Shown: positions 10,028 through 25,691 of the stretch, one piece after another
Position numbering within the stretch: position 1 is the first letter of the stretch
Layout of the letters: each line of letters starts with the position of its first letter
Origin: Actinomycetota bacterium
GTDB taxonomy: Bacteria > Actinomycetota > Thermoleophilia > Gaiellales > Gaiellaceae
DNA: 36,635 nt
Reading direction: 5' to 3'
Assembly (NCBI GenBank): GCA_020029595.1
Contig: JAIBJN010000022.1
Location: 1 to 36,635, forward strand
Translations under genes and position numbers: made by a program
The notes under the pieces: model-generated
Seen by the model: the letters and a program-made list of their open reading frames with translations, nothing else
Told to the model about the DNA's origin: nothing
Databases searched by the model: none

Positions 10028-11506
10028 GTGGAGACCCTCGGGCTCGAGTCGCGGCGCCGGCTCACGCTTGCAGCGACGATCCTCGGCTCGTCGCTCGCGT
10101 TCATCGACGCCAGCGTCGTCATCGTCGCGCTGCCCACGATCGAGGAGGACCTCGGCCTCGGCCTCACGGGGCAACAGTGGGTCTTCCTCTCGTACTCCCT
10201 CGCGCTCGCGGCGCTCTATCTCCCCGGCGGCGCGATCGGAGACCGCTACGGGCGGCGCAACGTCTTCATCGCCGGCGCGGCGGGCTTCGCCCTCTCCTCC
10301 CTCCTCGCCGGGTCCGCCGGCAACGAGGCCGTTCTCATCGTGGCACGCACCCTCCAGGGGGTGGCCGGTGCGTTCTTGACGACGAACTCGCTGGCGCTGC
10401 TGAGAGGCGTGTACGGCGCGGAGGCAGGACGGGCGATCGGGCTGTGGACCTCCTTCACGAGCGTGGCGACGATCGCCGGGCCGCCGGTCGGCGGGGCGCT
10501 CGTCGAGTGGGCGTCCTGGCGCTGGATCTTCCTCGTCAACCTGCCGCTGGCCGGCGCCGCCGTCGCGCTGGCGATCCTCGGGCGCTGCGACGAGGAGCCC
10601 TCGGGGCGCGTCGGGCGGCTCGACCTTCCGGGCGCCGCGCTCGCAGCCACCGGCTTCGGCCTGCTCACGTACGGCCTGGTCGAGGGCGCGGATCGGGGCT
10701 TCGGCGGACTGTGGTGGGCGTTCGTCGGCGCGACCGTCGCGCTCGCCGCCTTCGTTGTCGTCGAGCGGAGGGTGGCCGAGCCCATGCTCCCCTTCGCGCT
10801 CTTCCGCGTCCGGAACTTCGCGGCGGCGAACGCCGAGACCTTCCTCGTCTACGCCGGGCTCTACGGCTTCTTCGTCTTCTTCACGCTCTACCTTCAGTTC
10901 CTCGGCTTCTCGCCGTTCGAGGCCGGGCTCCTCAACATCCCCTCGAGCGTGATCATGATCCTGCTCGCCGCCCGCTTCGGCGGCCTCGCGGACCGGCACG
11001 GCCCCCGGCTCTACCTGACGCTCGGCCCGGCGCTGATCGGGGCGGGGACGCTCGTCTTCTCCCTCGTGGACGAGCGCTCGAACTTCTGGACGTTCGGCAT
11101 CGCCGGGCTCCTCCTCTTCTCCTTCGGCCTCGCGATGATGGTCGCGCCCATCACCTCGACGGCGCTCAAGTCCGCGCCCGAGCGCTACGCAGGCATCGCC
11201 TCGGGGGTCAACTCGACGGTCTCGCGGCTGGGGAGCCTCGTGGCGATCGCGGTCATCGGACTTGTGATCGCCCTCGTCTTCGACGCCCGCACGGACGCCC
11301 CCGGCGCGGTCCCTCTTGCCAAGGACCAGACGGCCCCGGAGCTCCGCGAGGCGTCGATCGACGGCTTCCGTGCCGGCATGGTGCTCGCCGCCGCACTCGC
11401 CTTCGCGGGCGCCGCGGTCGGCGCCGTGGGAATCTCGAACCGCGAGGCGCGCGGCGAGGAACCCCCGCTGCTCAGCGAACAGGCACCGGCGCCAGCCGGA
11501 AGCTGA
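10028..11506 (+). CDS. MFS transporter, DHA2-like drug:H+ antiporter family (14 TM)
   Basis: The 492-residue protein has the 14-helix pattern of DHA2 exporters. Motif C-like and motif A signatures are visible: LGSSLAFIDASVVIVALPTI (helix 1), GGAIGDRYGRRNVF (loop 2-3), LQGVAGAFLTTNSLALL and SVATIAGPPVGGALVEW (helix 5). A second DRHGPRL loop lies in the C-terminal half. Such pumps expel drugs, dyes or metabolites in exchange for protons; the cargo is unknown. The start GTG is 6 nt after a TATCCT box. Its 3' end overlaps the convergent ATP-grasp gene by 35 bp. Confidence 0.93.
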   Translation: METLGLESRRRLTLAATILGSSLAFIDASVVIVALPTIEEDLGLGLTGQQWVFLSYSLALAALYLPGGAIGDRYGRRNVFIAGAAGFALSSLLAGSAGNEAVLIVARTLQGVAGAFLTTNSLALLRGVYGAEAGRAIGLWTSFTSVATIAGPPVGGALVEWASWRWIFLVNLPLAGAAVALAILGRCDEEPSGRVGRLDLPGAALAATGFGLLTYGLVEGADRGFGGLWWAFVGATVALAAFVVVERRVAEPMLPFALFRVRNFAAANAETFLVYAGLYGFFVFFTLYLQFLGFSPFEAGLLNIPSSVIMILLAARFGGLADRHGPRLYLTLGPALIGAGTLVFSLVDERSNFWTFGIAGLLLFSFGLAMMVAPITSTALKSAPERYAGIASGVNSTVSRLGSLVAIAVIGLVIALVFDARTDAPGAVPLAKDQTAPELREASIDGFRAGMVLAAALAFAGAAVGAVGISNREARGEEPPLLSEQAPAPAGS

Positions 11507-12644
11507 GCGCGCGGGCGCGCTCGCGGCAGCGCGCGACGGCCTCCTCCCGCGTCTCGCCGATGCCGTAGAGGATGGCCAGGCGATAGCTCTGAGCGTCATT
11601 CACGCCCTGGTCGGAGAGGTAGAGGCCCGGGCGGACGAGCAGCTCGACGTCGCGGTCGGGGTCGGGGACGGCCTCGACGAAGGCGTCCGTGAACACGCGC
11701 AGGCAGTAGCTCACGCCCACCCCCTCGGCCGGGCCCGGGCGCCACGCGGGATCCTGGCCGAGTGCGAGCTCGAAGAGAGCGTCGTACGTCGAGCGTCCGT
11801 GCACGGCCTGGACGAGCGGCGCGAATTGAGAGGCGAGGCGCCCGTTGACCTCGATGATCTGCGCGGGGCCCTGCTCGGGGACGAAGAACTCGACGTTGAA
11901 GAAGCCGCCCTCGAAGCCGAGCGCGGGCAGGACGCGCCCGGTGACGTCGGAGAGCTCCGCGAGCCGCTCCTCCGGAAGCGCGCTCGGGTACTCGAAGCGC
12001 TCGAAGCTGAGCGTCCCCGGGTACTTGACGGAGTCGGTGACCCCGATCGTCGTCACGCGCCCTCCGTGCACGTACCCCTCGAGCGTCACCTCTGCACCGG
12101 AGAGGAGCTCCTCGACGAGGAAGCCGTGCGCATGGGCGGGGTCGGCGCCGGCCAGGGCCGCGATCTCCGCGTAGCGCGTCGTGTAGCGGTCGATCTCGTG
12201 GAGGTCGAGCAGATCGCGAGGGTCGTCGATCCGGAACGCGTTCTGCGAGAGGCGCCCGACGACGGGCTTGACGAAGAACGGGACGTCGAACGGCACGCGG
12301 CCGTCCAGGACGGCGAAGCTCGGAGTCGCCTCTGGAGCGACGCGGTGCTGGAGGGCGCGCGACGTCGGCTTGTGCTGGCAGGCGACGAGCGCCTCCGGCC
12401 GGGGCCCCGGAAGGTCGCGGCGTTCGGCGAGCAGCGAGGCGAGGAGCGCGGATTGATCCTTCGTGCCCACGACCGCCTCGGCCGGGATCGACTCGCACTC
12501 CTCCAGGAAGGCCTCGGGGTCGAAGGCCTCGAGCTGGTCGAGGTCGGAGCCGGCGAAGCGGACGCTGTAGCGATCCTCGAGGCCGGCCGCGCGAATCGCT
12601 TTCAGGTCCCGCTCCTGCGGGCAGAGCACCAGGATGTCTCTCAT
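11472..12644 (-). CDS. ATP-grasp domain protein (carboxylate-amine/thiol ligase-like)
   Basis: The 390-residue protein has a pre-ATP-grasp domain starting MRDILVLCPQERDLKAI, the nucleotide-binding lysine segment FFVKPVVGRLSQNAF, the second-lobe element GFLVEELLSGAEVTLEGYV, and the metal-binding EFFVPEQGPAQIIEVNGRL with its Glu and Asn. Members join a carboxylate to an amine, thiol or peptide using ATP. Substrates cannot be predicted. The ATG at 12644 is preferred to an earlier ATG at 12689, because MRDILVL begins the Rossmann-like strand and TAGCAT (12673-12678, minus) lies upstream as a -10 candidate. It is divergent from the MetE-like gene by 56 bp. Confidence 0.88.
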   Translation of the reverse strand: MRDILVLCPQERDLKAIRAAGLEDRYSVRFAGSDLDQLEAFDPEAFLEECESIPAEAVVGTKDQSALLASLLAERRDLPGPRPEALVACQHKPTSRALQHRVAPEATPSFAVLDGRVPFDVPFFVKPVVGRLSQNAFRIDDPRDLLDLHEIDRYTTRYAEIAALAGADPAHAHGFLVEELLSGAEVTLEGYVHGGRVTTIGVTDSVKYPGTLSFERFEYPSALPEERLAELSDVTGRVLPALGFEGGFFNVEFFVPEQGPAQIIEVNGRLASQFAPLVQAVHGRSTYDALFELALGQDPAWRPGPAEGVGVSYCLRVFTDAFVEAVPDPDRDVELLVRPGLYLSDQGVNDAQSYRLAILYGIGETREEAVARCRERARALSFRLAPVPVR

Positions 12645-12688
12645 AAGGCCTGCGCGCCCGCGCGCGCCGGAAATGCTACCCGTCTGCA

Positions 12689-12694
12689 TACGCT
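12689..12694 (+). promoter_or_regulatory. -10 box of a leaderless promoter for the MetE-like gene
   Basis: TACGCT ends 6 nt before the GTG at 12701. No Shine-Dalgarno is present. Confidence 0.5.
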
Positions 12695-12700
12695 ACCCGC

Positions 12701-13804
12701 GTGCTCGAAGCTCGAACCGACGTCGTCGGCAGCCTGCTCAGGCCCACCGAGCTCCTGGAGGCGCAGGAGCGGCTCGCCGCCGGGGAGCTTTCTCGCGCCG
12801 AGTTCAAGCGCGTAGAGGATCGCGCGGTCGACGAGGCGCTGCAGCTCCAGGAGGAGGCGGGCCTGGACGTCGTCACCGACGGCGAGATGCGCCGGCTCTC
12901 CTTCCAGAGTCAGCTTCCGGCCGCGGTGGAGGGATTCGGCGCCTGGGACCTGGACGCGTTCCTCTGGGGCGATTGGCACTCGGAGGAGCTGGGCGACCTG
13001 AGCGTCGAGCGCCCCCCGCTCGCCGTCGTCGGGACGCTTCGTCGGCGACGCTCCCTCTCCGGCGAGGAGTTCGCCTACGCCCGCGGCCGCACCGACCGGG
13101 TCCTGAAGGTCACTCTTCCGAGCCCGAGCCTCTTCGCCAACTTCTACGATCCCGAGCGCTCCCGTGAGGCCTATCCGGCGCTCGAGGACTTCCTCGGCGC
13201 CGTGGCCGAGATCCTGCGCGAGGAGGTCGAGGAGCTCGTCGACCTCGGCGCCACGTACATCCAGCTCGACGCTCCGCACTACCCGCTGCTCGTCGACCCC
13301 CGCTACCGCGACTTCTACGAGAGCAGGGGCTGGCCGGCCGAGCGCTGGCTCGACCTCGGCCTGGAGCTCGACAACGTCGTCATCGGAGACCATCCGGGCG
13401 TGACCTTCGGCTTCCACCTGTGCCGGGGGAACCAGGCGAGCCGCTGGCTCGTCGAGGGCGGCTACGACTGGCTCGCCGGCCGCCTCTTCCGACGGGTGAA
13501 GGCCCAGCGGCTCCTGCTCGAGTACGACGACGCCCGCTCGGGCGGCTTCGAGCCGCTCGCCGAGGCCCCCGAGGACGCGATCTGCGTGCTCGGGCTCGTG
13601 ACGACGAAGACCCCTCGGCGGGAGAGCGTCGATGAGCTCGTCGGGCGGATCCGCGAGGCCGCCCGCTTCGTCCCGCTCGAGCGGCTCGCGCTCTCGCCGC
13701 AGTGCGGCTTCGCCACGTCGATCGTCGGCAACGCCCTCTCGGTGGAGGACGAGCGGGCGAAGCTCGCGACCATCGCCGAGACGGCCGCGGTGGTGTGGGC
13801 TTGA
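12701..13804 (+). CDS. MetE C-terminal-domain-like zinc methyltransferase
   Basis: The 367-residue protein resembles only the catalytic half of cobalamin-independent methionine synthase (MetE is about 750 residues). It begins TDVVGSLLRP, the usual GS-R-P start of these short homologues. The zinc ligands are visible: His239 and Cys241 in FGFHLCRGN, Glu274 in LLLEYD and Cys335 in LSPQCGF. Such short proteins transfer methyl groups to thiols or split C-S/C-C bonds; which applies here is unknown. The HAL-like gene starts 1 nt after its stop, so the pair is one operon. It probably acts in the same pathway as that protein and the ABC importer. Confidence 0.9.
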   Translation: MLEARTDVVGSLLRPTELLEAQERLAAGELSRAEFKRVEDRAVDEALQLQEEAGLDVVTDGEMRRLSFQSQLPAAVEGFGAWDLDAFLWGDWHSEELGDLSVERPPLAVVGTLRRRRSLSGEEFAYARGRTDRVLKVTLPSPSLFANFYDPERSREAYPALEDFLGAVAEILREEVEELVDLGATYIQLDAPHYPLLVDPRYRDFYESRGWPAERWLDLGLELDNVVIGDHPGVTFGFHLCRGNQASRWLVEGGYDWLAGRLFRRVKAQRLLLEYDDARSGGFEPLAEAPEDAICVLGLVTTKTPRRESVDELVGRIREAARFVPLERLALSPQCGFATSIVGNALSVEDERAKLATIAETAAVVWA

Positions 13805-13805
13805 G

Positions 13806-15269
13806 ATGAACGTCGTCCTCGACGGCTCGAGCCTGACTCTCGTCGACGTCGTCCGTGTGGCGCGCGAGGGCGCGGCCGTGGAGCTCGCGCCCGCGGCGGT
13901 CGAACGGATGCGGGAGGCGCACGCGGTCGTCGAGCGCGCGCTCGAGCGAGGCGACGTGGTCTACGGGCTGACGACCGGCGTCGGCGCCCGGAAGAAGGTG
14001 GGCGTCACGGCCGAACAGAGCCCGGCCTTCAACCGCGCCCTCGTCGCCAACCACCTCGTCGGCACCGGCCCGGACGCGCCGCGCGAGGTCGTGCGGGCGA
14101 CGATGCTCCGCGTGGCGAATGCCCTCGTCAAGGGGACCGCCGGCGTGCGGCCCGAGATCGCCGAGCGGATCGTGACGGCGCTGAACGCGCGGGAGCACCC
14201 GCGCGTGCGCCTGCTCGGCTCACTCGGCCAGGCCGATCTTCCCCAACATGCCGACCTCACGCACGGTCTCTTCGAGGGTGTCGAGCTCCAGGCCAAGGAG
14301 GGGATCGCCCTCCTCAACTCGAACGCCTTCTCGACGGCCCTCGCGGCGCTCGCCCTCGCCGACCTCGGGCGTCTCCTCTCCTCCCTCGACGTCGCGGGCG
14401 CGCTCGACCTCGAGGCCTTCGCAGCAAACCTCACTCTGCTTCACCCGGCCATCGGCGAGGTTCGTCCCTACCCCGGCATCGTCGAGTCCCTCGCCGGCCT
14501 GCGAGAGCTCCTCGAGGGAAGCTCCCTGTGGGATCCCGGCGTGGCCCGGAATCTCCAGGACCCGCTCTCGTTCCGCTGCCTCCCCCAGGTGCACGGCGCC
14601 GTGCGGGACGTGCTTGCCTTCGCCCAGGGCCACCTCGAGATCGAGCTCAACGCCTCGCAGGAGAACCCGCTCGTCCTTCCCGCCGAAGACCGCATCGTCT
14701 CGGTCGCCAACTTCGACATCCTGCCGCTGGCCTCGGCCCTCGACTTCCTCCGCATCGTCCTCGCCTCCGCCCTCACGTGCGCGTGCGAGCGCACGGAGAA
14801 GCTCCTCCAGGGACCGCTGACGGGGCTCCCGGACGGCCTCGCTCCCCGTCAGGGGCTGGCCGAGAACTCGCTCGGCGAGCTCGGGGTCACCGCGCAGGCG
14901 CTCACGGCCGAGGCGCGCCTCCTCGCCCACCCGGTCTCCTTCGAGACCGTCACCTCCACGCACGCCGAGGGGATCGAGGACCGGATGACGATGGCGCCCC
15001 TCGCCGCCCGCCGCCTTGGCGAAATGGTGCGGTTGGGCGAAGCTCTGGTCGCCATCGAGCTCGTGATCGGCTGTCAGGCCGTCGACCTCCGCCGCCCGGC
15101 CCGGCTCGGCGCTGGGACGCTCGTCGCCCACGAGCGCGTGCGCGAGCTCGTCCCCTTCCTGGGCGAAGGCGACACGCTCACGCCGGACCTCGAGCCGGTG
15201 CGCGACCTGATCCGCACGGGCGCGCTCGCTCCGAGAAGAGCAAACCGACGACGAGGAGAGGCGTCCTAG
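13806..15269 (+). CDS. Histidine ammonia-lyase-family protein lacking the MIO-forming triad
   Basis: The 487-residue protein has the HAL/PAL length and fold markers: YGLTTGVG (53-60), KEGIALLN (164-171), QDPLSFRCLPQVHGA (251-265), NASQENPLV (282-290), and HAEGIEDRMTMAPLAARRL near residue 390. In active HAL/PAL/TAL enzymes, GSVGASGDLAP carries the Ala-Ser-Gly that cyclises into the MIO electrophile. Here the region reads GSLGQADLPQHAD, so ASG is replaced by Gln142-Ala143-Asp144. The tyrosine of the usual QDAYSLR motif is Leu254. Tyr53, Asn171 and Arg257 equivalents remain. It cannot be a standard MIO ammonia-lyase; it may catalyse another elimination or addition, or bind an amino acid. It is coupled to the MetE-like gene and followed by an importer. 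Confidence 0.88.
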   Translation: MNVVLDGSSLTLVDVVRVAREGAAVELAPAAVERMREAHAVVERALERGDVVYGLTTGVGARKKVGVTAEQSPAFNRALVANHLVGTGPDAPREVVRATMLRVANALVKGTAGVRPEIAERIVTALNAREHPRVRLLGSLGQADLPQHADLTHGLFEGVELQAKEGIALLNSNAFSTALAALALADLGRLLSSLDVAGALDLEAFAANLTLLHPAIGEVRPYPGIVESLAGLRELLEGSSLWDPGVARNLQDPLSFRCLPQVHGAVRDVLAFAQGHLEIELNASQENPLVLPAEDRIVSVANFDILPLASALDFLRIVLASALTCACERTEKLLQGPLTGLPDGLAPRQGLAENSLGELGVTAQALTAEARLLAHPVSFETVTSTHAEGIEDRMTMAPLAARRLGEMVRLGEALVAIELVIGCQAVDLRRPARLGAGTLVAHERVRELVPFLGEGDTLTPDLEPVRDLIRTGALAPRRANRRRGEAS

Positions 15270-15272
15270 GAG

Positions 15273-15301
15273 TTGACGGAGCACGGGCACCGTGCGATAA
15301 G
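15273..15301 (+). promoter_or_regulatory. Promoter of the ABC importer operon
   Basis: TTGACG (15273-15278), a 17-nt spacer and GATAAG (15296-15301) lie just after the HAL-like stop codon. Transcription from about 15308 would give a leader of about 29 nt containing the Shine-Dalgarno GAGAGGAG (15320-15327). Confidence 0.55.
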
Positions 15302-15336
15302 GGCAGATTCCCGATTTGCGAGAGGAGCTGCGAGAG

Positions 15337-17025
15337 ATGGACGAGACCCAGCGCCGCGTCGACGAGTTCCGCAAGACCAGGAGCGACATCGAGAACAACC
15401 TGATCGACTCGCTCGTCGCAAGGAAGATCAGCCGGCGTGAGTTCGTCCGCCGCGGGACGGTCATCGGCCTTTCCCTGTCCTCGCTTTCCTTCATCGCCTC
15501 GGCGTGCGGCGGGGACGACGACGACGGGGCGGCCACCGGCGCCACCGAGACAACCGAAGCCGGGCCGAAGGCCGGCGGCGCCCTTCGTACGGGCATCATT
15601 GCACCCGCGATCGAGCTCAACCCGGTCGTCGTCTACGACGAGGGCGGGCTTGCAGTCCTCGGCCAGTCCGGCGAGTACCTCGCGTGGTCGAACGACCAGC
15701 TCGAGCTCGAGCCGCGCCTCGCCGAGAGCTGGACGCCGAACGACGACGGGTCCGTGTGGACGTTCGCGATCCGCCAGGGCGTCACGTTCCACGACGGCGC
15801 GCCGCTCACCGCCAAGGACGTCGCCTATACGCTCAACCTCAACGCGGATCCGGCCAACGAGGGCAACGCGCTCTCGGCGTTCGGGGACCCGGGCGGGCTG
15901 TCGGCGGGAGGAGCGAAGGCCGTCGACGACGCCACCCTCGAGGTGACGCTGAACGGCCCGAACGGCAGCTTCCCCTACCTCGTCAGCTCCGACAACTACA
16001 ACGTCATCGTCATCCCCGACGGCTTCGACCCGGCGACGTGGGAGAAGTCGTTCATCGGCACCGGCCCCTGGGTCCTCGACACGTTCACGCCCCAGCAGAG
16101 CGTCACCTACACGAAGAATCCCGACTACTGGGACACGAGCCGCCAGCCGCTCGCCGACACGAGCGAGCTCCGGTTCTTCGCCGAGGACCAGGCTCGCATC
16201 CTCGCGATCCAGGGCGGCGAGGTCGACATCCTGAGCCAGTTCCAGGTCGTCGCCGGCGGGGAGGCGCTGCTCAACGACCCGAACATCGTCGTGACCGAGA
16301 TCCAGGCGGCCCAGCACCGCCAGATCCACATGCGCGCCGACCAGGAGCCGTTCAAGGACAAGCGCACCCGGCAGGCGATGGCGCTCCTGCTCGACCGGCC
16401 GACGATCATCGAGGGCTTCTTCCAGGGCAAGGCCGACCTCGGAAACGACAACCCGTTCGCTCCGGTCTACCCGTACACCGACACGAGCGTGCCACAGCGC
16501 GCGGTGGACGTCGAGGAGGCCAAGCAGCTCCTCGCGGACGCGGGTCAGGGCGACGGCTTCGACGTGAAGCTCTCGACCTGGGACAACTACGAGATCCCGC
16601 AGCTCGCACAGCTCCTCCAGGGCGCGGCGAAGGAGATAGGGATCAACATCACGCTGAACGTCACCGACGCCGGCACCTACTACAGCGACTTCTGGCTCAA
16701 CTCGCCGCTCGGCATCACCGATTACGGACACCGCGGGGTGCCGACCGTGTACCTCACGGCCGCGCTCGGGAGCGCCGGCACCTGGAACGCCGCGCACTTC
16801 AAGAACCCGACCTTCGACGGGATGATCGTGGACTTCATCTCCGCGCTCGACGTCGACGCCCAGAAGGCGGCGGCGAAGTCGATCGAGGAGTTCCTGCTCG
16901 ACGAGACGCCGGTCATCTTCCCGTACTTCTACTACCACCTCTCGGCAGAGAGGAACAACGTGTCGGGGATCGACCCGACCGGGATGGGACACATCGACCT
17001 GACCAAGACGGGCTTCACCAGCTGA
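15337..17025 (+). CDS. ABC transporter substrate-binding lipoprotein (peptide/nickel/opine type, SBP family 5)
   Basis: The 562-residue protein has a 30-residue charged N-terminus, a twin-arginine motif SRREFVRRG (32-40), a hydrophobic stretch and a lipobox IASAC with Cys57, so it is probably a Tat-exported lipoprotein. A Thr/Gly-rich linker leads to the cluster C domain: LAESWTPNDDGSVWTFAIRQ, VTFHDGAPLTAKDVAY, IGTGPWVLDTF and DKRTRQAMALLLDR are classic family-5 motifs. Ligands of this family are di/oligopeptides, opines, metals or amino-acid derivatives. ATG 15337 follows GAGAGGAG; a TTG at 15316 lies inside that leader. The two permeases and ATPase follow directly. Confidence 0.95.
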   Translation: MDETQRRVDEFRKTRSDIENNLIDSLVARKISRREFVRRGTVIGLSLSSLSFIASACGGDDDDGAATGATETTEAGPKAGGALRTGIIAPAIELNPVVVYDEGGLAVLGQSGEYLAWSNDQLELEPRLAESWTPNDDGSVWTFAIRQGVTFHDGAPLTAKDVAYTLNLNADPANEGNALSAFGDPGGLSAGGAKAVDDATLEVTLNGPNGSFPYLVSSDNYNVIVIPDGFDPATWEKSFIGTGPWVLDTFTPQQSVTYTKNPDYWDTSRQPLADTSELRFFAEDQARILAIQGGEVDILSQFQVVAGGEALLNDPNIVVTEIQAAQHRQIHMRADQEPFKDKRTRQAMALLLDRPTIIEGFFQGKADLGNDNPFAPVYPYTDTSVPQRAVDVEEAKQLLADAGQGDGFDVKLSTWDNYEIPQLAQLLQGAAKEIGINITLNVTDAGTYYSDFWLNSPLGITDYGHRGVPTVYLTAALGSAGTWNAAHFKNPTFDGMIVDFISALDVDAQKAAAKSIEEFLLDETPVIFPYFYYHLSAERNNVSGIDPTGMGHIDLTKTGFTS

Positions 17026-17079: not shown

Positions 17080-18036
17080 ATCGCACGATTCCTCCTCAAA
17101 CGGCTCGGACTCGCGCTCATCACGCTCGTTCTCCTGAGCGTGATCATCTTCGTCGCGGCGCAGCTCCTCCCCGGGGACGTCGGCCGCGCGATCCTCGGCC
17201 CCTTCGCCGCTCAGAGCTCGGTCGACCAGCTCAACGAGGAGCTCGGCACGAACAGGTCCATCGTCGTCCAGTACGGCGACTGGGTCGGCGGCGTGCTCCA
17301 GGGCGACCTCGGCGACTCCTATGCGTTCAGCCGGCCTGTCGGGGATCTTCTCTGGCCCGCTCTCAAGAACTCGGCCAAGCTCGCCCTCCTCGCCTTCGTC
17401 ATCGTGGTCCCGATCGGCATCCTCGGCGGGGTCGCCGCCGCGCTCAAGGAGGGACGCTTGCGCGACCGGGTCATCTCGATTGGCGGCCTCTCGGCGACCG
17501 CCATTCCCGAGTTCGTCTGGGCCGTGCTCGGGATCATGATCTTCGGCGTCTGGCTCGGCGTCCTGCCCACCACAGCGCAGGCACCGCAGGACGCGGGCTT
17601 CTTCACGCAGGTGAAGTACCTCCTCCTCCCCGCGCTCTGCCTCGTCTTCGTTCTCTTCGGCTACATCGCCCGCATGGCGCGGGCCGGCACGATCGAGTCC
17701 CTTGACGCCGACTACACGCGAACCGCGTATCTCAAGGGCCTGCCACGGCGCACGGTCATCCGGCGCCACGTGCTGCGGAACTCCCTGCTGCCGACGATCG
17801 CGGTCGTCGCGACCCAGGTCGGCTACCTCTTCGGCGGCCTCGTCGCGATCGAGCTCATCTTCAACTACAACGGCCTCGGACAGCTGATCTACCGGGCCGC
17901 TCAGCGACAGGACTTCCCGCTCCTCCTCAGCGCCACCCTCGTCGTCGGCGTCGTCTACCTCGTGGCGACGCTGATCGCCGACGTGCTCTACTCGCTTCTC
18001 AACCCGCGCATCCGCCTCGCCTCGTCCGAGTCATGA
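17080..18036 (+). CDS. ABC transporter permease, DppB/OppB type
   Basis: The 318-residue polytopic protein starts (I)ARFLLKRLGLALITLVLLSVIIF, the standard OppB/DppB N-terminus with its first membrane helix. It has the EAA-like coupling segment DADYTRTAYLKGLPRRTVIRRHVLRNSL in two blocks near residues 208-236. The first canonical in-frame start is GTG at 17140, which would remove most of helix 1. An ATC at 17080 lies 6 nt after GGAGG (17069-17073) and gives the full family N-terminus, so I take AUC as the likely start. The next permease gene overlaps its stop (ATGA). Confidence 0.88.
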   Translation: MARFLLKRLGLALITLVLLSVIIFVAAQLLPGDVGRAILGPFAAQSSVDQLNEELGTNRSIVVQYGDWVGGVLQGDLGDSYAFSRPVGDLLWPALKNSAKLALLAFVIVVPIGILGGVAAALKEGRLRDRVISIGGLSATAIPEFVWAVLGIMIFGVWLGVLPTTAQAPQDAGFFTQVKYLLLPALCLVFVLFGYIARMARAGTIESLDADYTRTAYLKGLPRRTVIRRHVLRNSLLPTIAVVATQVGYLFGGLVAIELIFNYNGLGQLIYRAAQRQDFPLLLSATLVVGVVYLVATLIADVLYSLLNPRIRLASSES

Positions 18037-18950
18037 GCAGGCCCGAAGAGCAGGTCGTTCTCGCAGAGCATCCGCTCCCCGAGACGCCGAGGGGCGAGGG
18101 CGACGAGGAGGCCCGGGTTGCGCGGCGGGAGCGGCTGCGGCTCCTTTCCCGCTCGAAGACCTTCCTCGCCGGAGCGCTCGTCTTCGGCGTCTTCGTCTTC
18201 TGCGCGATCTTCGGCGAGGCGGTCGTGCCCTACGACCCGCTCGGCTCACCTACGGACATCTTGAACAAGCTCGAGGCGCCGTCGTCGTCCCACTACTTCG
18301 GCACGGATCAGCTCGGCCGCGACGTCTTCTCCCGCGTCGTCGTCGGGGCCCGCGACATCCTCGTCGTCGCGTTGGCGGCGACGCTGCTCGGCACCGTTCT
18401 CGGCGCTGCCATCGGCCTCGTCACCGGATACTTCCGCGGGCTCGTCGACGACGTCCTCATGCGCATCGTGGACGCGTTCCTGGCGATCCCGCTCGTCATC
18501 CTCGCCACCGTCGCGCTCGTCGCGCTCGGCCCGTCCAAGGTCACCCTCGTCGTCGTCATCGGCATCGTCTTCGCGCCGATCATCGCCCGCACCGTGCGCG
18601 CCGCCGTGCTCTCCGAGCGCGAGCTCGAGTACGTTCAGGCGGCCAGGCTCCGCAACGAGCACGCCCCCTACATCATGTTCGCCGAGATCCTCCCGAACGT
18701 CACCGCGCCGATCGTGGTGGAGTTCACCGTCCGCCTCGGCTACGCGATCTTCGCGATCGCGACGCTCACGTTTCTCGGCTTCGGCGTCCAGCCGCCCTCG
18801 CCCGACTGGGGCCTCCAGATCAAGGAGAACTACGTGATCCTGAACGGCGGCTACTGGTGGCCGACGCTCTTCCCCGCGCTCGCGATCGCGGCGCTCGTCA
18901 TCAGCATCAACCTGATCACGGACGGAATCTCGAGGGTCTTCGAGCGATGA
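18033..18950 (+). CDS. ABC transporter permease, DppC/OppC type
   Basis: The 305-residue protein has a cytoplasmic N-terminus, a first membrane helix (LAGALVFGVFVFCAIFGEAV), then HYFGTDQLGRDVFSRVVVGAR, the signature of DppC/OppC permeases. The EAA loop is visible around YVQAARLRNEHAPYIMFAEI, and the C-terminus has GVQPPSPDWGLQI. It forms the membrane channel with the preceding permease. The ATG overlaps the previous stop, and the ATPase gene in turn overlaps this stop, so the operon is tightly coupled. Confidence 0.95.
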   Translation: MSRPEEQVVLAEHPLPETPRGEGDEEARVARRERLRLLSRSKTFLAGALVFGVFVFCAIFGEAVVPYDPLGSPTDILNKLEAPSSSHYFGTDQLGRDVFSRVVVGARDILVVALAATLLGTVLGAAIGLVTGYFRGLVDDVLMRIVDAFLAIPLVILATVALVALGPSKVTLVVVIGIVFAPIIARTVRAAVLSERELEYVQAARLRNEHAPYIMFAEILPNVTAPIVVEFTVRLGYAIFAIATLTFLGFGVQPPSPDWGLQIKENYVILNGGYWWPTLFPALAIAALVISINLITDGISRVFER

Positions 18951-21004
18951 CCGCTGCGACCGCGCCTGCGCTCGAGCTGGACGACCTCAACGTCGCCTAC
19001 ACGGTCCGGGGCATCGACCGCCCCGTGCTCCGCGGGGTCACGCTCTCGATCGCCCAGGGCGAGTCCTACGGGCTCGTCGGCGAGTCCGGCTGCGGCAAGT
19101 CGACCGCCGCCTTCGCCCTCATGCGCTATCTCCCTCGAAACGGGAAGATCCAGAGCGGGTCGATCCGGATCGCAGGCCAGGAGCTCATGAGCATGAGCGA
19201 GGATGGTGTCCGGAACCTCCGCGCCACCCAGGTCTCGATGGTCTACCAGAATCCCGGCGCGGCACTGAACCCGTCCATTCACATCGGCGACCAGGTGGCC
19301 GAAGTGTTCGAGATCGCGGGCGGATCGGGCGCGCAGGCGCGGGAGCGCACGCACGAGATCCTCGGCAAGGTGCAGATCTCCGATCCCGCACGCGTGATGC
19401 GCCGCTATCCACACCAGCTCTCGGGCGGCATGCAGCAGCGAGTCGTCATCGCCATGGCGCTCGCCAAAGACCCGGCGCTCCTCATTCTCGACGAGCCGAC
19501 GACAGGCCTCGACGCCACCGTCGAGGCCGAGGTCCTCGACCTCGTCGCGTTGCTCCGGGGCGAGTTCGGGACGAGCGTGTTCTTCATCAGCCACAACCTC
19601 GCCGTGATCCGCAGGATGTGCGAGCGAGTCGGCGTCCTCTACGCGGGTCGCCTCGTCGAAGAGGGGCAGGCCGAGACGGTCTTCACCGATCCGCGCCATC
19701 CGTACACCGTCGGTCTCCTGCGGTGCATCCCCAAAGGCGGCCTGCGCAAGGACGTGCACCGGCTCGACTCCATCCCCGGCTTCCTCCCGCAACTCGGCGC
19801 CGACCTGCCCGGCTGCGTCTTCACGGATCGCTGCGGCCTCGCTCGGGAGATCTGCCGGGAGCACGAGCCCGAGTTCCACCAGCTCGGCGGAGGCCATGCG
19901 AGTCGCTGCCATTTCCACGACGAGGCGCAGACGCTGCCGCGCACGACCCCCTCCCACACGGAGGTGCCGAAGCGCGAGTCGAACGGCGTCCCGGTGGTCA
20001 AGGCCGAGCACATGGCCAAGACCTTTCACCAGGAGGGCCACGACGTCCGCGCACTCGACGATCTCTCCATCGAGATCCGCCCCGGCGAGACGCTCGGCCT
20101 CGTCGGCGAGTCCGGAAGCGGGAAGACGACGTTCGCCCGGCTCTTGCTCGGACTGACCGAACCCGACCAGGGCTCGATCGTCGAGCTCGAGGGCCATCCG
20201 CTCGCACCGCGGATCGCGAAGAGAAGCTCGGACGACGTTCGCGCGCTCCAGATCGTCTTCCAGAACCCGGACGCGGCTCTCAATCGCCGCTTCTCGGTGC
20301 GCCGGATCATCAACCGGGCCCTCACGAAGCTCGTGGGCGCAAAGGGAGAGGGGCGCGACACCCGGCTCCGGGAGCTCGCGCACTCCGTGCGCTTCGACGT
20401 GCGCCTGCTGGGGGCGCGGCCCGCGCAGCTCTCCGGCGGCCTCAAGCAGCGCGTGGCGATCGCGCGCGCGTTTGCCGGCGAACCGCTCGTGGTCGTCTGC
20501 GACGAGCCGACCTCCGCCCTCGACGTCTCCGTGCAGGCCGCGATTCTCAACCTCCTCGCCGATCTCCAGCGCGACAAGGGAGTGACGTACCTCTTCATCT
20601 CCCACGACCTCGGCGTCGTTCGCTACCTCTCCGACCGTATCGCCGTCCTGTATCTCGGACGGCTGATGGAGGTGGGCGACGCGGAGACGGTCTTCAGCGC
20701 GCCTCACCACCCGTACACCGAGGCGCTGCTCTCCGCCGTGCCGAGCGTCGAGGGCGAGGAGCGCCCGCGGATCAGGCTCGAGGGCGAGATCCCGAGCGCG
20801 GCCGATCCTCCCTCCGGCTGCGTCTTCCACACCCGCTGCCCGCGCTACCTGGGAGCGATCTGCGAGGAGCAGGAGCCGCCGCTCGCGGAGGTGGAGCGGG
20901 GCCACTTCATGCGCTGCCACATCCCCGTCGACGAGCTGCGGCGCCTGCAGGCCGAGCCGCCCCCACCGCGGGCGCGAGGTTCTCAGGCGAAGACGACGAG
21001 CTGA
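18947..21004 (+). CDS. Fused double ABC ATPase (DppD-DppF type) of the importer
   Basis: The 685-residue protein joins two complete ATPases. Half 1 has GESGCGKST, LSGGMQQRV and LLILDEPTTGLDATVE; half 2 has GESGSGKTT, LSGGLKQRVAIARAF and VVVCDEPTSALDVSVQ. Each half ends with the cysteine-containing oligopeptide C-terminal extension (GCVFTDRC...C and GCVFHTRC...C). In most Dpp/Opp systems these are two separate genes. Both halves keep Walker A, signature and Walker B residues, so both sites look active. ATG 18947 overlaps the permease stop (ATGA). The 3' end overlaps the convergent alcohol dehydrogenase gene by 22 bp. Confidence 0.95.
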   Translation: MTAATAPALELDDLNVAYTVRGIDRPVLRGVTLSIAQGESYGLVGESGCGKSTAAFALMRYLPRNGKIQSGSIRIAGQELMSMSEDGVRNLRATQVSMVYQNPGAALNPSIHIGDQVAEVFEIAGGSGAQARERTHEILGKVQISDPARVMRRYPHQLSGGMQQRVVIAMALAKDPALLILDEPTTGLDATVEAEVLDLVALLRGEFGTSVFFISHNLAVIRRMCERVGVLYAGRLVEEGQAETVFTDPRHPYTVGLLRCIPKGGLRKDVHRLDSIPGFLPQLGADLPGCVFTDRCGLAREICREHEPEFHQLGGGHASRCHFHDEAQTLPRTTPSHTEVPKRESNGVPVVKAEHMAKTFHQEGHDVRALDDLSIEIRPGETLGLVGESGSGKTTFARLLLGLTEPDQGSIVELEGHPLAPRIAKRSSDDVRALQIVFQNPDAALNRRFSVRRIINRALTKLVGAKGEGRDTRLRELAHSVRFDVRLLGARPAQLSGGLKQRVAIARAFAGEPLVVVCDEPTSALDVSVQAAILNLLADLQRDKGVTYLFISHDLGVVRYLSDRIAVLYLGRLMEVGDAETVFSAPHHPYTEALLSAVPSVEGEERPRIRLEGEIPSAADPPSGCVFHTRCPRYLGAICEEQEPPLAEVERGHFMRCHIPVDELRRLQAEPPPPRARGSQAKTTS

Positions 21005-22086
21005 CGCACGGCCTCGCCCGCACGGAGGCGATCGAGGGCCTCCGGCAGCTCGGCGAGCGCGATGCGGTGGCTGACGAGCTCATCGAGGCGGAACTCGCCC
21101 GCGGCGTACAGGTCGACGAGGCGTGGGACGTCCTCCTGGATCACGGCCGAGCCCAGGAGGCAGCCCTTGAGCGTCTTCTCGTTGATGAAACCCCAGGTGT
21201 CGATCGTGAGCGTCGAGCCCCTCGGCGGGAGCCCGATGACGACGACCGTGCCGCCGGGTCGCACCGCCTCCCACGCCTCGCGGATCGTCTCCTCCCGTCC
21301 GATCGCCTCGAAGGCGTAGTCCGCACCGCCGCCCGTGGCATGGCGGACGCGTCGCGCCGTGTCCGCGCTCGGACGGGCCTGGAGGGTCGCCGTCGCACCC
21401 AGCTGCGCGGCGAGCTCCAGCTTCTCCGGCCGCGTGTCGACGCCGACGATGGGGCTCGCGCCCGAGAGCCGCGCGGCCTGGAGTGCGGAGAGCCCGACGC
21501 CGCCGCAGCCCCAGACGGCAACGCTCGCCCCCTCCTCGACCCCCGCCGTTCTCGTCACGCCGCCCCAGCCCGTGAGGGCCGCGCAGCCGACGAGCGCGGC
21601 GACGTCGAGCCGAACGTCCTCTCGGATCGGCACGGCGACCGATTCCGGCACGACGGCGTACTCCGCGAACGAGGAGACCGCGTTGAAGTGGCGGAGCACG
21701 GTCCCCTCCAGGGAGAGGCGCGAGGTGCCGTCCGCCAGCGTTCCAGTCGCCGACATGCGGTCGCCGAGCTCGCAGAGGTTGGGCCGCCCGCTGCGGCAGC
21801 TCGCGCACTCACTGCACGAGGGGAGGAGCGCGAGGACGACGTGGTCGCCGGGCTGGAGCCGTGTGACGCCCGCACCCGTCTCGACGACGACGCCGGAGGC
21901 CTCGTGCCCGAGGACGAGGGGCAGCGGCTCGGGGAGGTCGCCGTCGACGACGTGCAGGTCGCTCGCGCAGACCCCGCACGCGGCGATGCGGACCAGCGCC
22001 TCGCCTGGCTGCGGCGGCGCCAGCTCCACCTCGCGGATCTCGACCGCCCGACCCGGCTCCCACAGCACTGCGGCCTGCATGCGCAT
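20983..22086 (-). CDS. Zinc-dependent alcohol dehydrogenase (MDR superfamily)
   Basis: The 367-residue protein has the catalytic zinc residues Cys in GVCASDLH and His/Glu in GHEASG, the four structural zinc cysteines in CSECASCRSGRPNLC, and the NAD-binding loop WGCGGVGLSALQAA. It oxidises an alcohol or hemithioacetal with NAD; the substrate is unknown. Close relatives include class III-like enzymes. ATG 22086 has TACGCT 7 nt upstream and no Shine-Dalgarno. It is divergent from a second, related dehydrogenase and convergent with the ABC ATPase. Confidence 0.94.
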   Translation of the reverse strand: MRMQAAVLWEPGRAVEIREVELAPPQPGEALVRIAACGVCASDLHVVDGDLPEPLPLVLGHEASGVVVETGAGVTRLQPGDHVVLALLPSCSECASCRSGRPNLCELGDRMSATGTLADGTSRLSLEGTVLRHFNAVSSFAEYAVVPESVAVPIREDVRLDVAALVGCAALTGWGGVTRTAGVEEGASVAVWGCGGVGLSALQAARLSGASPIVGVDTRPEKLELAAQLGATATLQARPSADTARRVRHATGGGADYAFEAIGREETIREAWEAVRPGGTVVVIGLPPRGSTLTIDTWGFINEKTLKGCLLGSAVIQEDVPRLVDLYAAGEFRLDELVSHRIALAELPEALDRLRAGEAVRQLVVFA

Positions 22087-22093
22087 GCCGGCG

Positions 22094-22119
22094 AGCGTAC
22101 CTGGCGCGCGCCGTAGAAT
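22094..22119. promoter_or_regulatory. Divergent leaderless promoters of the two alcohol dehydrogenases
   Basis: Minus-strand TACGCT (22094-22099) and plus-strand TAGAAT (22114-22119) each end 7 nt before an ATG (22086 minus, 22127 plus). The 14 bp between the boxes contain the perfect palindrome GGCGCGCGCC (22103-22112), a possible shared operator. Confidence 0.55.
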
Positions 22120-22126
22120 CGCCCCC

Positions 22127-23224
22127 ATGCGCGCCGCCGTCCTCCGGGAGATCGGGGAGCCCCTGACCGTCGAGGACGTCGAGCTCGCAGAGCCCGGCCC
22201 CGGCGAGGTGCTCGTCCGCCTCGCCGCGAGCGGCGTCTGCCACAGCGACTGGAACGTGGTCACGGGCGCGACCCCGAACCCCCTGCCGGCCGTCCTCGGC
22301 CACGAGGGCGCCGGCATCGCCGAAAGCACTGGTGACGGGGTGACGGCGCTGCACGAGGGCGACCACGTCGTCCTCTCCTGGCTTCCGGCCTGCGGGCGCT
22401 GCTTCTACTGCCTGCACGGTCGCGCCGCCCTTTGTGACGTGGCCATGGAGGACATGTTCCGCGGCACGCTTCCGGGCGGCGCGCTTCGGCTCTCGCAAGA
22501 CGGGGAGCCGCTCTACCACTACGGCTACCTGTCGACGTTCGCCGAGCGCTGCGTCGTCCCAGAGAGCTGCTGCGTGCGCATTCGGCAGGACGTCCCGTTC
22601 GAGGTGGCCGCCCTCGTCGGGTGCGCGGCCATGACCGGGTTCGGCGCCGCGGTCAACCGGGCGCGCGTCGAGCCGGGATCCACGGTCGTCGTCTTCGGCG
22701 CCGGAGGTGTGGGGCTCTCCGCAATCCTCGGCGCCCGGTTCGCGGGCGCGCGGACGATCGTGGCGGCGGACCCCGTTCCCTTCAAACGCGAGACGGCCCT
22801 CGAGCTCGGCGCGACGCACGCGGCCGACCCGACGGGGGAGGACGTCTCCGCCTTCCTCCGCAAGCTCACCGACGGACGCGGGGCGGACTACGCCTTCGAT
22901 ACCGCGGGGGCGCCCGGCGTCGTCGCGCAGGCGTACGACGCCGTCCGGCGCGGGGGCACCGTCGTCGCCGTCGGGCTCCCACCCGCGGGCGTGACGGCCG
23001 ACCTTCCGGCCGAAGACCTGCCGCGGGAGGAGAAGGTCGTCACGGGGAGCTTCTACGGCTCCTGTCTGCCGCAGCTCGACATGCCGCTCGTTCTCGACCT
23101 CTTCATGGAGGGACGGCTGCCTCTCGACCGGCTCGTCACACGCACCTTCGCGCTCGAGGAGATCAACGAGGCATTCGCCGCCATGAACGCCGGCGAGGTC
23201 GCGCGGGGGGTGATCCGCTTCTGA
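22127..23224 (+). CDS. Zinc-dependent alcohol dehydrogenase, class III-like (MDR superfamily)
   Basis: The 365-residue protein has SGVCHSDWNVV (catalytic Cys), LGHEGAGI, the structural zinc cluster CGRCFYCLHGRAALC and the Rossmann loop FGAGGVGLSAILGA. Extended class III features such as GSFYGSC and LEEINEAFAAMNAGE near the C-terminus resemble thiol-dependent formaldehyde dehydrogenases and related aryl-alcohol enzymes. The neighbouring Fae homologue makes formaldehyde or a hydroxymethyl adduct a plausible substrate, but this is inference. The start is the ATG 7 nt after TAGAAT; longer upstream frames overlap the divergent gene. The next gene overlaps its stop codon. Confidence 0.94.
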   Translation: MRAAVLREIGEPLTVEDVELAEPGPGEVLVRLAASGVCHSDWNVVTGATPNPLPAVLGHEGAGIAESTGDGVTALHEGDHVVLSWLPACGRCFYCLHGRAALCDVAMEDMFRGTLPGGALRLSQDGEPLYHYGYLSTFAERCVVPESCCVRIRQDVPFEVAALVGCAAMTGFGAAVNRARVEPGSTVVVFGAGGVGLSAILGARFAGARTIVAADPVPFKRETALELGATHAADPTGEDVSAFLRKLTDGRGADYAFDTAGAPGVVAQAYDAVRRGGTVVAVGLPPAGVTADLPAEDLPREEKVVTGSFYGSCLPQLDMPLVLDLFMEGRLPLDRLVTRTFALEEINEAFAAMNAGEVARGVIRF

Positions 23225-23733
23225 GGTTCGCGGAGCGGACGCTCGTCGGGGAGGGCTTCGCCGGGAGCGGGCCGAGCGCCGCCCATGTGAACACGGTGCT
23301 CGGTCGTAAGGGCGGCCCGGTCGAGACGGCGTGGGCGACGGCGCTGGCCACCCCTCGCCAGGGGCACATTCCCTTCGTGGCCGTTCTCCGGCCGAACGTG
23401 CCGGTGAAGCCGGCCACGCTGTTCGTGAACAAGGCGGACATCCGCGGTGAGCGTCACGCCGCGCTCACCTGGGGCGCCGCGCAGGCCGGCGTCGCCCAAG
23501 GCGTGCTCGACTCCGTGGCGAACGGGGTGATTCCCGCGGCCGAGGTCGACGATCTCGTCCTCATCGCGGCGGTCTGGGTGGACTGGGCCGCGGAGGTCGA
23601 GGAAGAGATCTATGCGGGCAACGTCGAGGCGACGCGCGACGCGCTCGCGGCCGGCGCCGAGGGACGCCCGGCGATCGACGAGCTCCTCGCTCTTCGCGCC
23701 GAGCCCGAGAACCCTTTCTTCAGACGCTCGTGA
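23221..23733 (+). CDS. Formaldehyde-activating enzyme (Fae) homologue
   Basis: The 170-residue protein matches Fae along its length: ERTLVGEGFAGSGPSAAH with the catalytic-type His22, GRKGGPVETAWATALATP, VPVKPATLFVNKADI, AQAGVAQGVLDSVANGVIP and DDLVLIAAVWVDWAAEVEE. Fae condenses formaldehyde with tetrahydromethanopterin in methylotrophs and archaea; some homologues have other roles. No H4MPT genes are in this window. No ATG, GTG or TTG occurs in frame near the expected N-terminus. CTG at 23221, overlapping the ADH stop as CTGA and preceded by GGGGGG, is the best start. The enolase-superfamily gene overlaps its stop as GTGA. Confidence 0.87.
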   Translation: MRFAERTLVGEGFAGSGPSAAHVNTVLGRKGGPVETAWATALATPRQGHIPFVAVLRPNVPVKPATLFVNKADIRGERHAALTWGAAQAGVAQGVLDSVANGVIPAAEVDDLVLIAAVWVDWAAEVEEEIYAGNVEATRDALAAGAEGRPAIDELLALRAEPENPFFRRS

Positions 23734-24839
23734 AGATCACGGGCGTCCGCCTCCGGCGCCTGCGCTACCCGCTCGACCCTCCCTTCTCCCCCGCCTGGGA
23801 CCCCGACCCACGGCGCACATTCGAGGCGACCCTCGTCTATGTCGACACCGACGAGGGTCTCACCGGCATCGGCTCGGGCGACACGATGGACGGCTTCGAG
23901 CGCTATGCGGGCCTGTTCGTCGGCCGCGACCCACTCGAGATCGAGCGCCACGTGCGCGTGCTCGAGACGATCGCGTTCCACGCAGGTCGCTACTGGCCGC
24001 TCGAGGCGGCGCTCTGGGATCTAGCCGGCAAGGCGGAGGGCGTGCCCGCCGCGCGGCTCTTCGGCGGGGCTCGAGACAGGGCTCCGGCTTACGCCTCGAC
24101 CGCCGAGCGTCGACCGGCCGGCGCTCGCGCCGAGGCCGCGCTCGCGCTTCGCGAGCAGGGCTTCAGGGCGCTCAAGACGCGCATCGACAAGGAGCGGCTC
24201 GAGGAGGGCGTCGAGGCCGTTGTCGCGGTGCGCGAGGCCGTCGGGTCGAGCATGGAGATCATGGTCGATCTCAACCAGGGTTGGCGTATGCCCGGCGACG
24301 TGGCGCCGCTCCTCGACTTCGAGACCGTCCACCGCCTCGCCGGCCGGCTGCGCGGGCTCGGCATCCTCTGGCTCGAGGAGCCGCTCGCCGGCCAGGACGT
24401 CGGCGGCCTCGCCCGCCTGCGCGCAACGGGCGGCGTCCGCATCGCCGGCGGGGAGATGGCGCGGACGCCCGCGGAGCTGGAGGCGTACCTGCAGGCCGAG
24501 GCGCTCGACGTCTACCAGCCGGACGCGGTGCTCGCGGTCGGGCTCCTGCGCGCCCGCGAGCTCGCGAAGCGCGTGCACCGGCGCGGGCTCTGGTTCACGC
24601 CGCACACGTGGACGAACGGGATCGGGCTCCTCGCCAACCTGCACGTCGCTGCGGGCGTCGGCGGCGGCCCCTTCCTGGAGTTCCCCTTCGACCCGCCCGG
24701 CTGGACGCCGGAGCGCCGAGATTTCATGCTCGCCGAGCCCGTGCGCCCCGACGCCGACGGCCATCTCGTCCTCCCTGATCGGCCCGGCCTCGGCTTCGAG
24801 CTCGACGAGGAGTCGGTCGAGCGCTACGCGGTGGGCTGA
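23730..24839 (+). CDS. Enolase-superfamily enzyme (mandelate racemase/muconate lactonising type)
   Basis: The 369-residue protein has an N-terminal capping domain and a C-terminal barrel. Visible active-site elements are ALKTRID with Lys149-x-Arg151, the metal ligands Asp180 (MVDLNQGW), Glu216 (WLEEPL) and Glu242 (GGEM), Asp265 (QPDAVL) and His292 (FTPHTW). The Asp-His dyad is that of the mandelate racemase subgroup, which abstracts a proton alpha to a carboxylate, often for sugar-acid or hydroxy-acid dehydration. The second base is Arg rather than the common Lys. Substrate unknown. GTG 23730 overlaps the Fae stop. Confidence 0.93.
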   Translation: MKITGVRLRRLRYPLDPPFSPAWDPDPRRTFEATLVYVDTDEGLTGIGSGDTMDGFERYAGLFVGRDPLEIERHVRVLETIAFHAGRYWPLEAALWDLAGKAEGVPAARLFGGARDRAPAYASTAERRPAGARAEAALALREQGFRALKTRIDKERLEEGVEAVVAVREAVGSSMEIMVDLNQGWRMPGDVAPLLDFETVHRLAGRLRGLGILWLEEPLAGQDVGGLARLRATGGVRIAGGEMARTPAELEAYLQAEALDVYQPDAVLAVGLLRARELAKRVHRRGLWFTPHTWTNGIGLLANLHVAAGVGGGPFLEFPFDPPGWTPERRDFMLAEPVRPDADGHLVLPDRPGLGFELDEESVERYAVG

Positions 24840-24842
24840 ACC

Positions 24843-25691
24843 ATGCCGACCTTCGACGTGCACCAGCACCTCCTGCCCGAGCCGCTCCTCGAGAGGCTCC
24901 GGGCCCGCCGCGAGCCACCGTGCCTCACCGAGGGGTCCCTCGAGCTCCGCGAGGGCTCGTTCCCGTTCGACGAGGGCGCCCACGACCTCGGCGAACGGAT
25001 CGCCCTCCTGGACCGGGAGGGAGTCGACGTCGGCGTCGTCTCCCTCGCCCCCACGCTCGAGACCGAGGCGCACTTGGAGCTTCGGGACGCCTACCACGAG
25101 GGCATCCGCGAGGTCGTCGCGGTCGCCGACGGACGGCTGGTCGCGCTCGCCGCCGGCGCCTGCCTCGAGGGCTTCGCCGGCGCCTGCGTGTCTGCGGCAG
25201 CGCTCGCCGGGGGCCTCGGTGACCTGCCGGACGACCTTGCCCGGGCCGGTCAAGTGCTCTTTGTGCACCCAGGTCCGCCGGACCCGGTCCCGGAGGGGGC
25301 GCCGCCGTGGTGGGCGCCCGTCGTCGACTACACGGCGCAGATGCAGACCGCGTACTTCTCTTGGCTCGCCGACGGGGTGGAGCGCCACCCGGAGCTCGAG
25401 GTCGTCTTCGCCATCCTCGCCGGCGGGGCACCCTTCCAGCTCGAGCGCCTGCACGCGCGCGGTGCCGAGGTGCGGCCGGCCCTCCACCCGAGGATCCACC
25501 TCGACACGGCCTCCTACGGACGGCGGGCTCTCGAGCACTGCCTGGAGACGTTCGGGGCCGGCCCGCTCGTCTACGGGAGCGACGTGCCGGTGATCGACCC
25601 GGCCCCTACCCTGGACGCCCTGAGGGGATTGGGAGAGGCTGTGCTCGCTACCGTGCGCGCCGAGAACCCTGGACGACTCTTCCGATGCTGA
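24843..25691 (+). CDS. Amidohydrolase-2 (ACMSD-like) family metal hydrolase/decarboxylase
   Basis: The 282-residue protein starts MPTFDVHQHLLPEPL, with the His7-x-His9 metal pair on strand 1 of the barrel, and ends with YGSDVPVIDP, where Asp247 is the last metal ligand. A mid-barrel HPELEVVFAILAGGAPFQLER replaces the more usual catalytic His segment, so metal coordination should be checked by alignment. Relatives include decarboxylases of aromatic or semialdehyde acids and lactonases. It starts 3 nt after the enolase-superfamily gene and overlaps the PLP gene by 7 nt. Confidence 0.9.
   Translation: MPTFDVHQHLLPEPLLERLRARREPPCLTEGSLELREGSFPFDEGAHDLGERIALLDREGVDVGVVSLAPTLETEAHLELRDAYHEGIREVVAVADGRLVALAAGACLEGFAGACVSAAALAGGLGDLPDDLARAGQVLFVHPGPPDPVPEGAPPWWAPVVDYTAQMQTAYFSWLADGVERHPELEVVFAILAGGAPFQLERLHARGAEVRPALHPRIHLDTASYGRRALEHCLETFGAGPLVYGSDVPVIDPAPTLDALRGLGEAVLATVRAENPGRLFRC

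Follow-up and report, generated by a model that had tools for sequence, protein, structure and literature searches.

A member of the histidine ammonia-lyase family without the MIO triad in Gaiellaceae is related to, but distinct from, ergothionase

We analyzed a 36,635-nucleotide stretch of DNA (positions 1-36,635 of contig JAIBJN010000022.1, hereafter the window) from a soil-dwelling member of the Gaiellaceae (Gaiellales, Thermoleophilia), whose draft genome comprises 140 contigs (assembly GCA_020029595.1). The window encodes a 487-residue lyase of the HAL/PAL family (P0001; 13806..15269, + strand; identified by PF00221 and PDB matches) that lacks the MIO triad. A single base pair separates its ATG from the stop codon of the gene before it (12701..13804, +), which encodes a MetE-core-like zinc methyltransferase of 367 residues, made up of the catalytic domain only (PF01717, E 1.8e-20), with putative zinc ligands (H239, C241, E274, and C335) that are invariant in the five linked copies. 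The lyase is followed by a family-5 ABC substrate-binding protein (15316..17025, +, likely ATG at 15337; PF00496, E 1.8e-75), which is duplicated together with the lyase copy on contig C49, and by two permeases: permease B of the Opp/Dpp/Nik type (17140..18036, +; NCBIfam Opp2B/Opp4B, below cut-off) and permease C (18033..18950, +), which recurs as permease C in the loci of QAD-type relatives and in the C49 copy. Next come a fused two-domain ABC ATPase of the DppD-DppF type (18857..21004, +, true start probably near 18944; NCBIfam), a zinc alcohol dehydrogenase (ADH; 20983..22329, -; PF00107 and PF08240), a formaldehyde-activating-enzyme (Fae) domain protein (23215..23733, +; PF08714, E 3.4e-53), an enolase-superfamily (MR_MLE) protein (23730..24839, +; PF13378), and an Amidohydro_2 metal-dependent hydrolase (24843..25691, +; PF04909). 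An ATP-grasp ligase gene (11472-12689, -) lies divergent from the MetE-like gene, and its order with an MFS gene is also retained in a genome of the same genus (L036). A promoter and terminator pattern scan over 12400-15500 gave no match.

The reading frame of P0001 is open throughout, and its match to the PF00221 profile (E 4.4e-115; 385 bits versus a cut-off of 27) and its HAL/PAL fold place it in the aromatic amino acid lyase superfamily. Against the NCBIfam hutH equivalog, TIGR01225, it scores 331 bits, far under the 539-bit cut-off. The same genome carries a canonical HutH with GSVGASGDL on a different contig (L001), and a second short-loop lyase copy, 81% identical to P0001, on contig C49. 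We found dN/dS values of about 0.17 against the orthologue from the same genus and 0.24 against the 81% paralogue, which indicates that the lyase gene is maintained under purifying selection and has therefore not decayed. On C49 (L124, C49:1-7677), the series of lyase, substrate-binding protein, permeases, ATPase, and ADH is duplicated at approximately 78-86% identity, either as a paralogue or because the draft genome includes a contig of foreign origin.

At the position where canonical HAL/PAL proteins read GSVGASGDL, the alignment places GSLGQADL in P0001 (residues 138-145; 14217..14240, +), which is one residue shorter. Asp144 lines up with the Asp found directly after ASG in all canonical rows, and the change is therefore one of ASG to QA with a one-residue deletion. 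The initial annotation had read this as QAD replacing ASG; residues 142-144 are indeed Gln-Ala-Asp and the triad is gone, but the loop is shortened rather than swapped three for three. A search for [ATSC]SG across the entire protein found none, so that no intact ASG lies at another site, and this part of the claim stands. G141 and D144 are invariant across 20 aligned homologues, xSGDL is absent in 43 out of 43 clade rows, and the position of Tyr280 (QDxYSxR) is occupied by Leu254 in P0001 and by Leu or Ile in all 37 clade rows. Both features of MIO-dependent HAL/PAL/TAL enzymes, the Ala-Ser-Gly triad and Tyr280, are thus missing. P0001 retains Tyr53, His83, Asn171, Gln251, Arg257, and Glu391; Y53, Q251, R257, and D144 are kept in nearly all rows, and Y53, Q251, R257, K332, and E391 are near-invariant despite deep divergence. 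These findings support the idea that the known route to MIO is closed to P0001 and that the framework of the pocket is retained, as had been proposed from the missing triad and from the persistence of Tyr53, Asn171, and Arg257.

A scan of GTDB genomes found this type of lyase in Thermoleophilia/Gaiellales, Chloroflexota, Acidimicrobiales, Euzebyales, Streptomyces cavernae, and Nonomuraea. Within the order, about 35 copies at 45-80% identity were detected. The short loop, which occurs in 43 clade rows (Gaiellales/Thermoleophilia, Chloroflexota, Acidimicrobiales, Streptomyces, and Nonomuraea), is therefore not peculiar to one assembly, and the QAD variants group in one clade, a point that the initial annotation had proposed to check. 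In an unrooted phylogeny (IQ-TREE, 90 rows), one branch sets apart all 32 ASG rows (SH-aLRT 91; 86 after removal of the motif columns), and the MIO state therefore needs a single change on the unrooted tree. The ergothionase group is one clade (support 100), with members from T. denticola, Sinorhizobium, Polaromonas, and Burkholderia. The window clade is a separate one (support 99), and further groups without MIO are placed both between these two and around them. P0001 is therefore like ergothionase without being part of the ergothionase clade. A clade of exactly the QAD and ergothionase rows was rejected (AU test, p-AU 0.0006), probably due to the other MIO-less rows in between.

We also observed a freshwater actinobacterial subclade (L060, L062, L063, L065, L068, and L069) with a GMGD-type loop and a replaced Asn171 position, whose neighbours are hem/ccm/tat housekeeping genes, with betaine-type neighbours absent; this subclade may have a different role. 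The L060 contig is labelled Bifidobacterium breve and clusters with freshwater actinobacteria, so the label is probably wrong. Other triad-less HAL groups stand apart from the window clade, with GSVGYLTHM and similar motifs (L105, L108, L111, and L094), motifs of the GAAGEVIPL type (L038:17407-20544 and L058:4026-5594), or GTGDL (L087, L097, L102, and L115).

To compare gene contexts, we examined 29 QAD loci (348 kb of flank) and 29 ASG loci (378 kb), the latter being controls from other phyla. Near the QAD lyases we found CDO-type thiol dioxygenases (10 out of 29 loci), MTTB-family methyltransferases (8), family-5 substrate-binding proteins (8), MetE (5), OpuAC betaine-binding proteins (4), and homocysteine S-methyltransferases (4), versus 0 out of 29 for each of these among the ASG loci from other phyla. 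These neighbours point to quaternary-amine chemistry. The expectation that the clade always sits beside a MetE-like gene was not borne out: when judged against the 28 QAD loci that have more than 1.3 kb of upstream sequence, adjacency was confined to a minority, namely the window and L036, L038, L039, L044, L049, and L064. In three loci the lyase lies within a hut-type gene cluster, in the order hutF-hutU-hutI-lyase-ABC (L057), hutU-hutI-hutF-M24-lyase (L047), or ABC-lyase-hutU-hutI (L093). The M24 protein beside the hut-like operon (L047:7841-9061) has the DMSP lyase DddP as its best NCBIfam match, below cut-off. By score, the urocanases linked to QAD lyases are either hutU or intermediate between hutU and S-methyl-thiourocanate hydratase. 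The contexts are variable, and most have no urocanase within reach, which counts against the reading proposed below. Fae and MR_MLE also adjoin the lyase in L043 and L056, copies of MR_MLE that are 63-64% identical do so in L061 and L088, and Amidohydro_2 recurs near the lyase in about 10 loci, often paired with a thiol dioxygenase. MR_MLE scores nearest to sugar-acid dehydratases, and the set of ADH, Fae, MR_MLE, and amidohydrolase could be an unrelated sugar-acid pathway, which likewise weighs against that reading.

Elsewhere in the host genome (L123, C27:13429-16959), a second urocanase precedes EgtD (a histidine Nalpha-methyltransferase that scores 293 bits against a cut-off of 291) as well as a gene resembling 3-hydroxyacyl-CoA dehydrogenase. 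This urocanase shares about 71% identity with its counterpart next to the lyase in Streptomyces cavernae, relatives of the dehydrogenase-like gene adjoin the lyase in Streptomyces and Nonomuraea, and EgtD lies beside the dehydrogenase in a further genome (G039). The cluster suggests a link between the lyase and trimethylated histidine. Among genomes of the order, EgtD was no commoner in lyase-bearing genomes than in others, and the case for an EgtD link therefore rests on how these genes adjoin in the host genome, together with the EgtD-dehydrogenase pair in G039. Searches of the host genome for MTTB, CDO, and OpuAC found none of them. Both results count against the reading proposed below.

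We propose that P0001 is probably an ergothionase-type, MIO-independent C-N lyase that releases trimethylamine from a histidine-type betaine, coupled to import of the substrate and urocanase-type hydration of the product; triad loss, kinship to ergothionase, purifying selection, and gene context are demonstrated here, whereas the substrate, its leaving group, and what the MetE-core enzyme does are inferred. Without MIO there would be no attack of an electrophilic cofactor on the substrate and the amino group could not be activated, so the substrate should bring its own good leaving group, trimethylammonium. In the retained HAL fold, Tyr53 would serve as the general base, and Lys332, with Arg257 and Glu391, may bind the carboxylate and polarise the ring. 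An acid/base-assisted beta-elimination would then release trimethylamine from the betaine, most likely hercynine, ergothioneine, or S-methyl-ergothioneine taken up through the adjacent ABC system, and leave a urocanate-type acrylate to be passed to hydration. The MetE-core enzyme may partly salvage methyl groups to methionine; in marine bacteria, methionine synthesis is tied to betaine demethylation through proteins different from those here (PMC12478193). With low confidence, we further suggest that the clade consists of cofactor-free hercynine (trimethylhistidine) lyases, which would form urocanate and trimethylamine in the place of HutH beside HutU, HutI, and HutF. We found no hercynine lyase in the literature searched; if true, such an enzyme would be an MIO-independent entry into histidine degradation.

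The alternative that survives best, possible though doubtful, is an MIO-less lyase acting on a substrate not of the histidine type, either another aromatic or non-aromatic betaine or a compound that undergoes elimination or isomerisation without trimethylamine, with MR_MLE, Fae, ADH, and the amidohydrolase processing the products. Several loci carry these genes next to the lyase, a more frequent arrangement than with urocanase, and the sugar-acid dehydratase likeness of MR_MLE fits this alternative, whereas the three hut-type clusters and the kinship with ergothionase speak against it. It is unlikely that P0001 is simply an ergothionase, converting ergothioneine to trimethylamine and thiourocanate: ergothionase is its top match in both sequence and structure, the two have the active-site signature K63, L254, K332, and E391 in common, and thiol dioxygenase genes lie nearby in the clade, with a rhodanese gene in one locus, but the identity is only about 28-30%, the clades are separate, a loop of about 15 residues after residue 155 is absent, and the linked urocanases do not score as thiourocanate hydratases, unlike in the Burkholderia ergothionase-like locus. 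Loss of both the MIO triad and the Tyr280 equivalent would also be expected of a catalytically dead HAL paralogue retained for binding or regulation, which we consider improbable given the near-invariant pocket residues, the dN/dS of 0.17-0.24, the operon and transporter context, and the same losses in ergothionase, an active enzyme; the initial view of a changed reaction rather than a dead gene is supported. An error in sequencing or assembly, or a frameshift that locally masks ASG, might be suspected in a draft genome of 140 contigs but has next to no probability and is refuted, since 43 homologous proteins and the second copy in the same genome carry this loop too.

Name-based annotation would label these genes as histidine ammonia-lyase, which the known mechanism rules out. 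If our favoured reading of P0001 as a betaine lyase holds, this large MIO-less clade of Actinobacteria and Chloroflexota, with its ties to quaternary-amine genes, could produce trimethylamine in soil as a source so far overlooked, and it would illustrate reuse of the HAL fold for cofactor-free elimination, possibly on more than one substrate. The kind of enzyme is already known, as ergothionase, and no description of the clade, its substrate, or its context was found in the literature searched.

Among known systems, PAL, TAL, and the aminomutases (TIGR01226, TIGR03832, and TIGR04475) resemble P0001 in the family fold only, as it lacks MIO and scores far under all curated cut-offs. The window MetE-core protein resembles the core methionine synthases MesA-D (PMC7857596) in having a catalytic domain without the folate-binding half and in its zinc ligand pattern, but its nearest solved relative, 1ypx, carries no description beyond that of a putative member of the methionine synthase family. 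HutH of P. putida (1b8f) has the same fold as P0001, with equivalents of Tyr53, His83, Gln277, Arg283, and Glu414, but P0001 differs in the absence of ASG and MIO, Leu for Tyr280, the additional Lys332, and its score below the hutH cut-off. When an AlphaFold model of P0001 (built on 20 homologues; pLDDT 88.5, pTM 0.90) was used in a structure search, ergothionase ranked first (TM 0.91), with 1b8f narrowly behind (TM 0.90), and the best PDB sequence match was likewise T. denticola ergothionase 6s7j (E 1e-55, a single full-length alignment). Ergothionase, as described in PMC13405746, which cites Maurer 2019, lacks MIO and cleaves ergothioneine to trimethylamine and thiourocanic acid. P0001 shares with it (T. 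denticola 6s7j and Burkholderia sp. HME13) the MIO-less HAL fold, a GxGD-type loop one residue short (GQAD in P0001, GEGD within IGEGD in ergothionase), Y53, K63, Leu for Tyr280, QDPLSFR, GVGxxK, and K332 and E391 (Lys355 and 411 in T. denticola). R248, P253, L254, F256, K332, I390, and P398, which few ASG rows carry, are shared by the window clade with four ergothionase-like proteins; K63 is not diagnostic because some Chloroflexota ASG rows also carry it. An ergothionase-like gene on a Sinorhizobium meliloti megaplasmid is adjoined by the same type of ABC system as in the window. The Burkholderia ergothionase-like gene, by comparison, adjoins a true thiourocanate hydratase (1049.9 versus a cut-off of 930), whereas the second urocanase of the host and the urocanases of QAD loci fall under that cut-off, and the window clade differs further in its MetE-core/MTTB/CDO context. 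Overall, the initial idea of a changed reaction is supported; it overlooked that this signature was already on record in MIO-less HAL relatives, the ergothionases.
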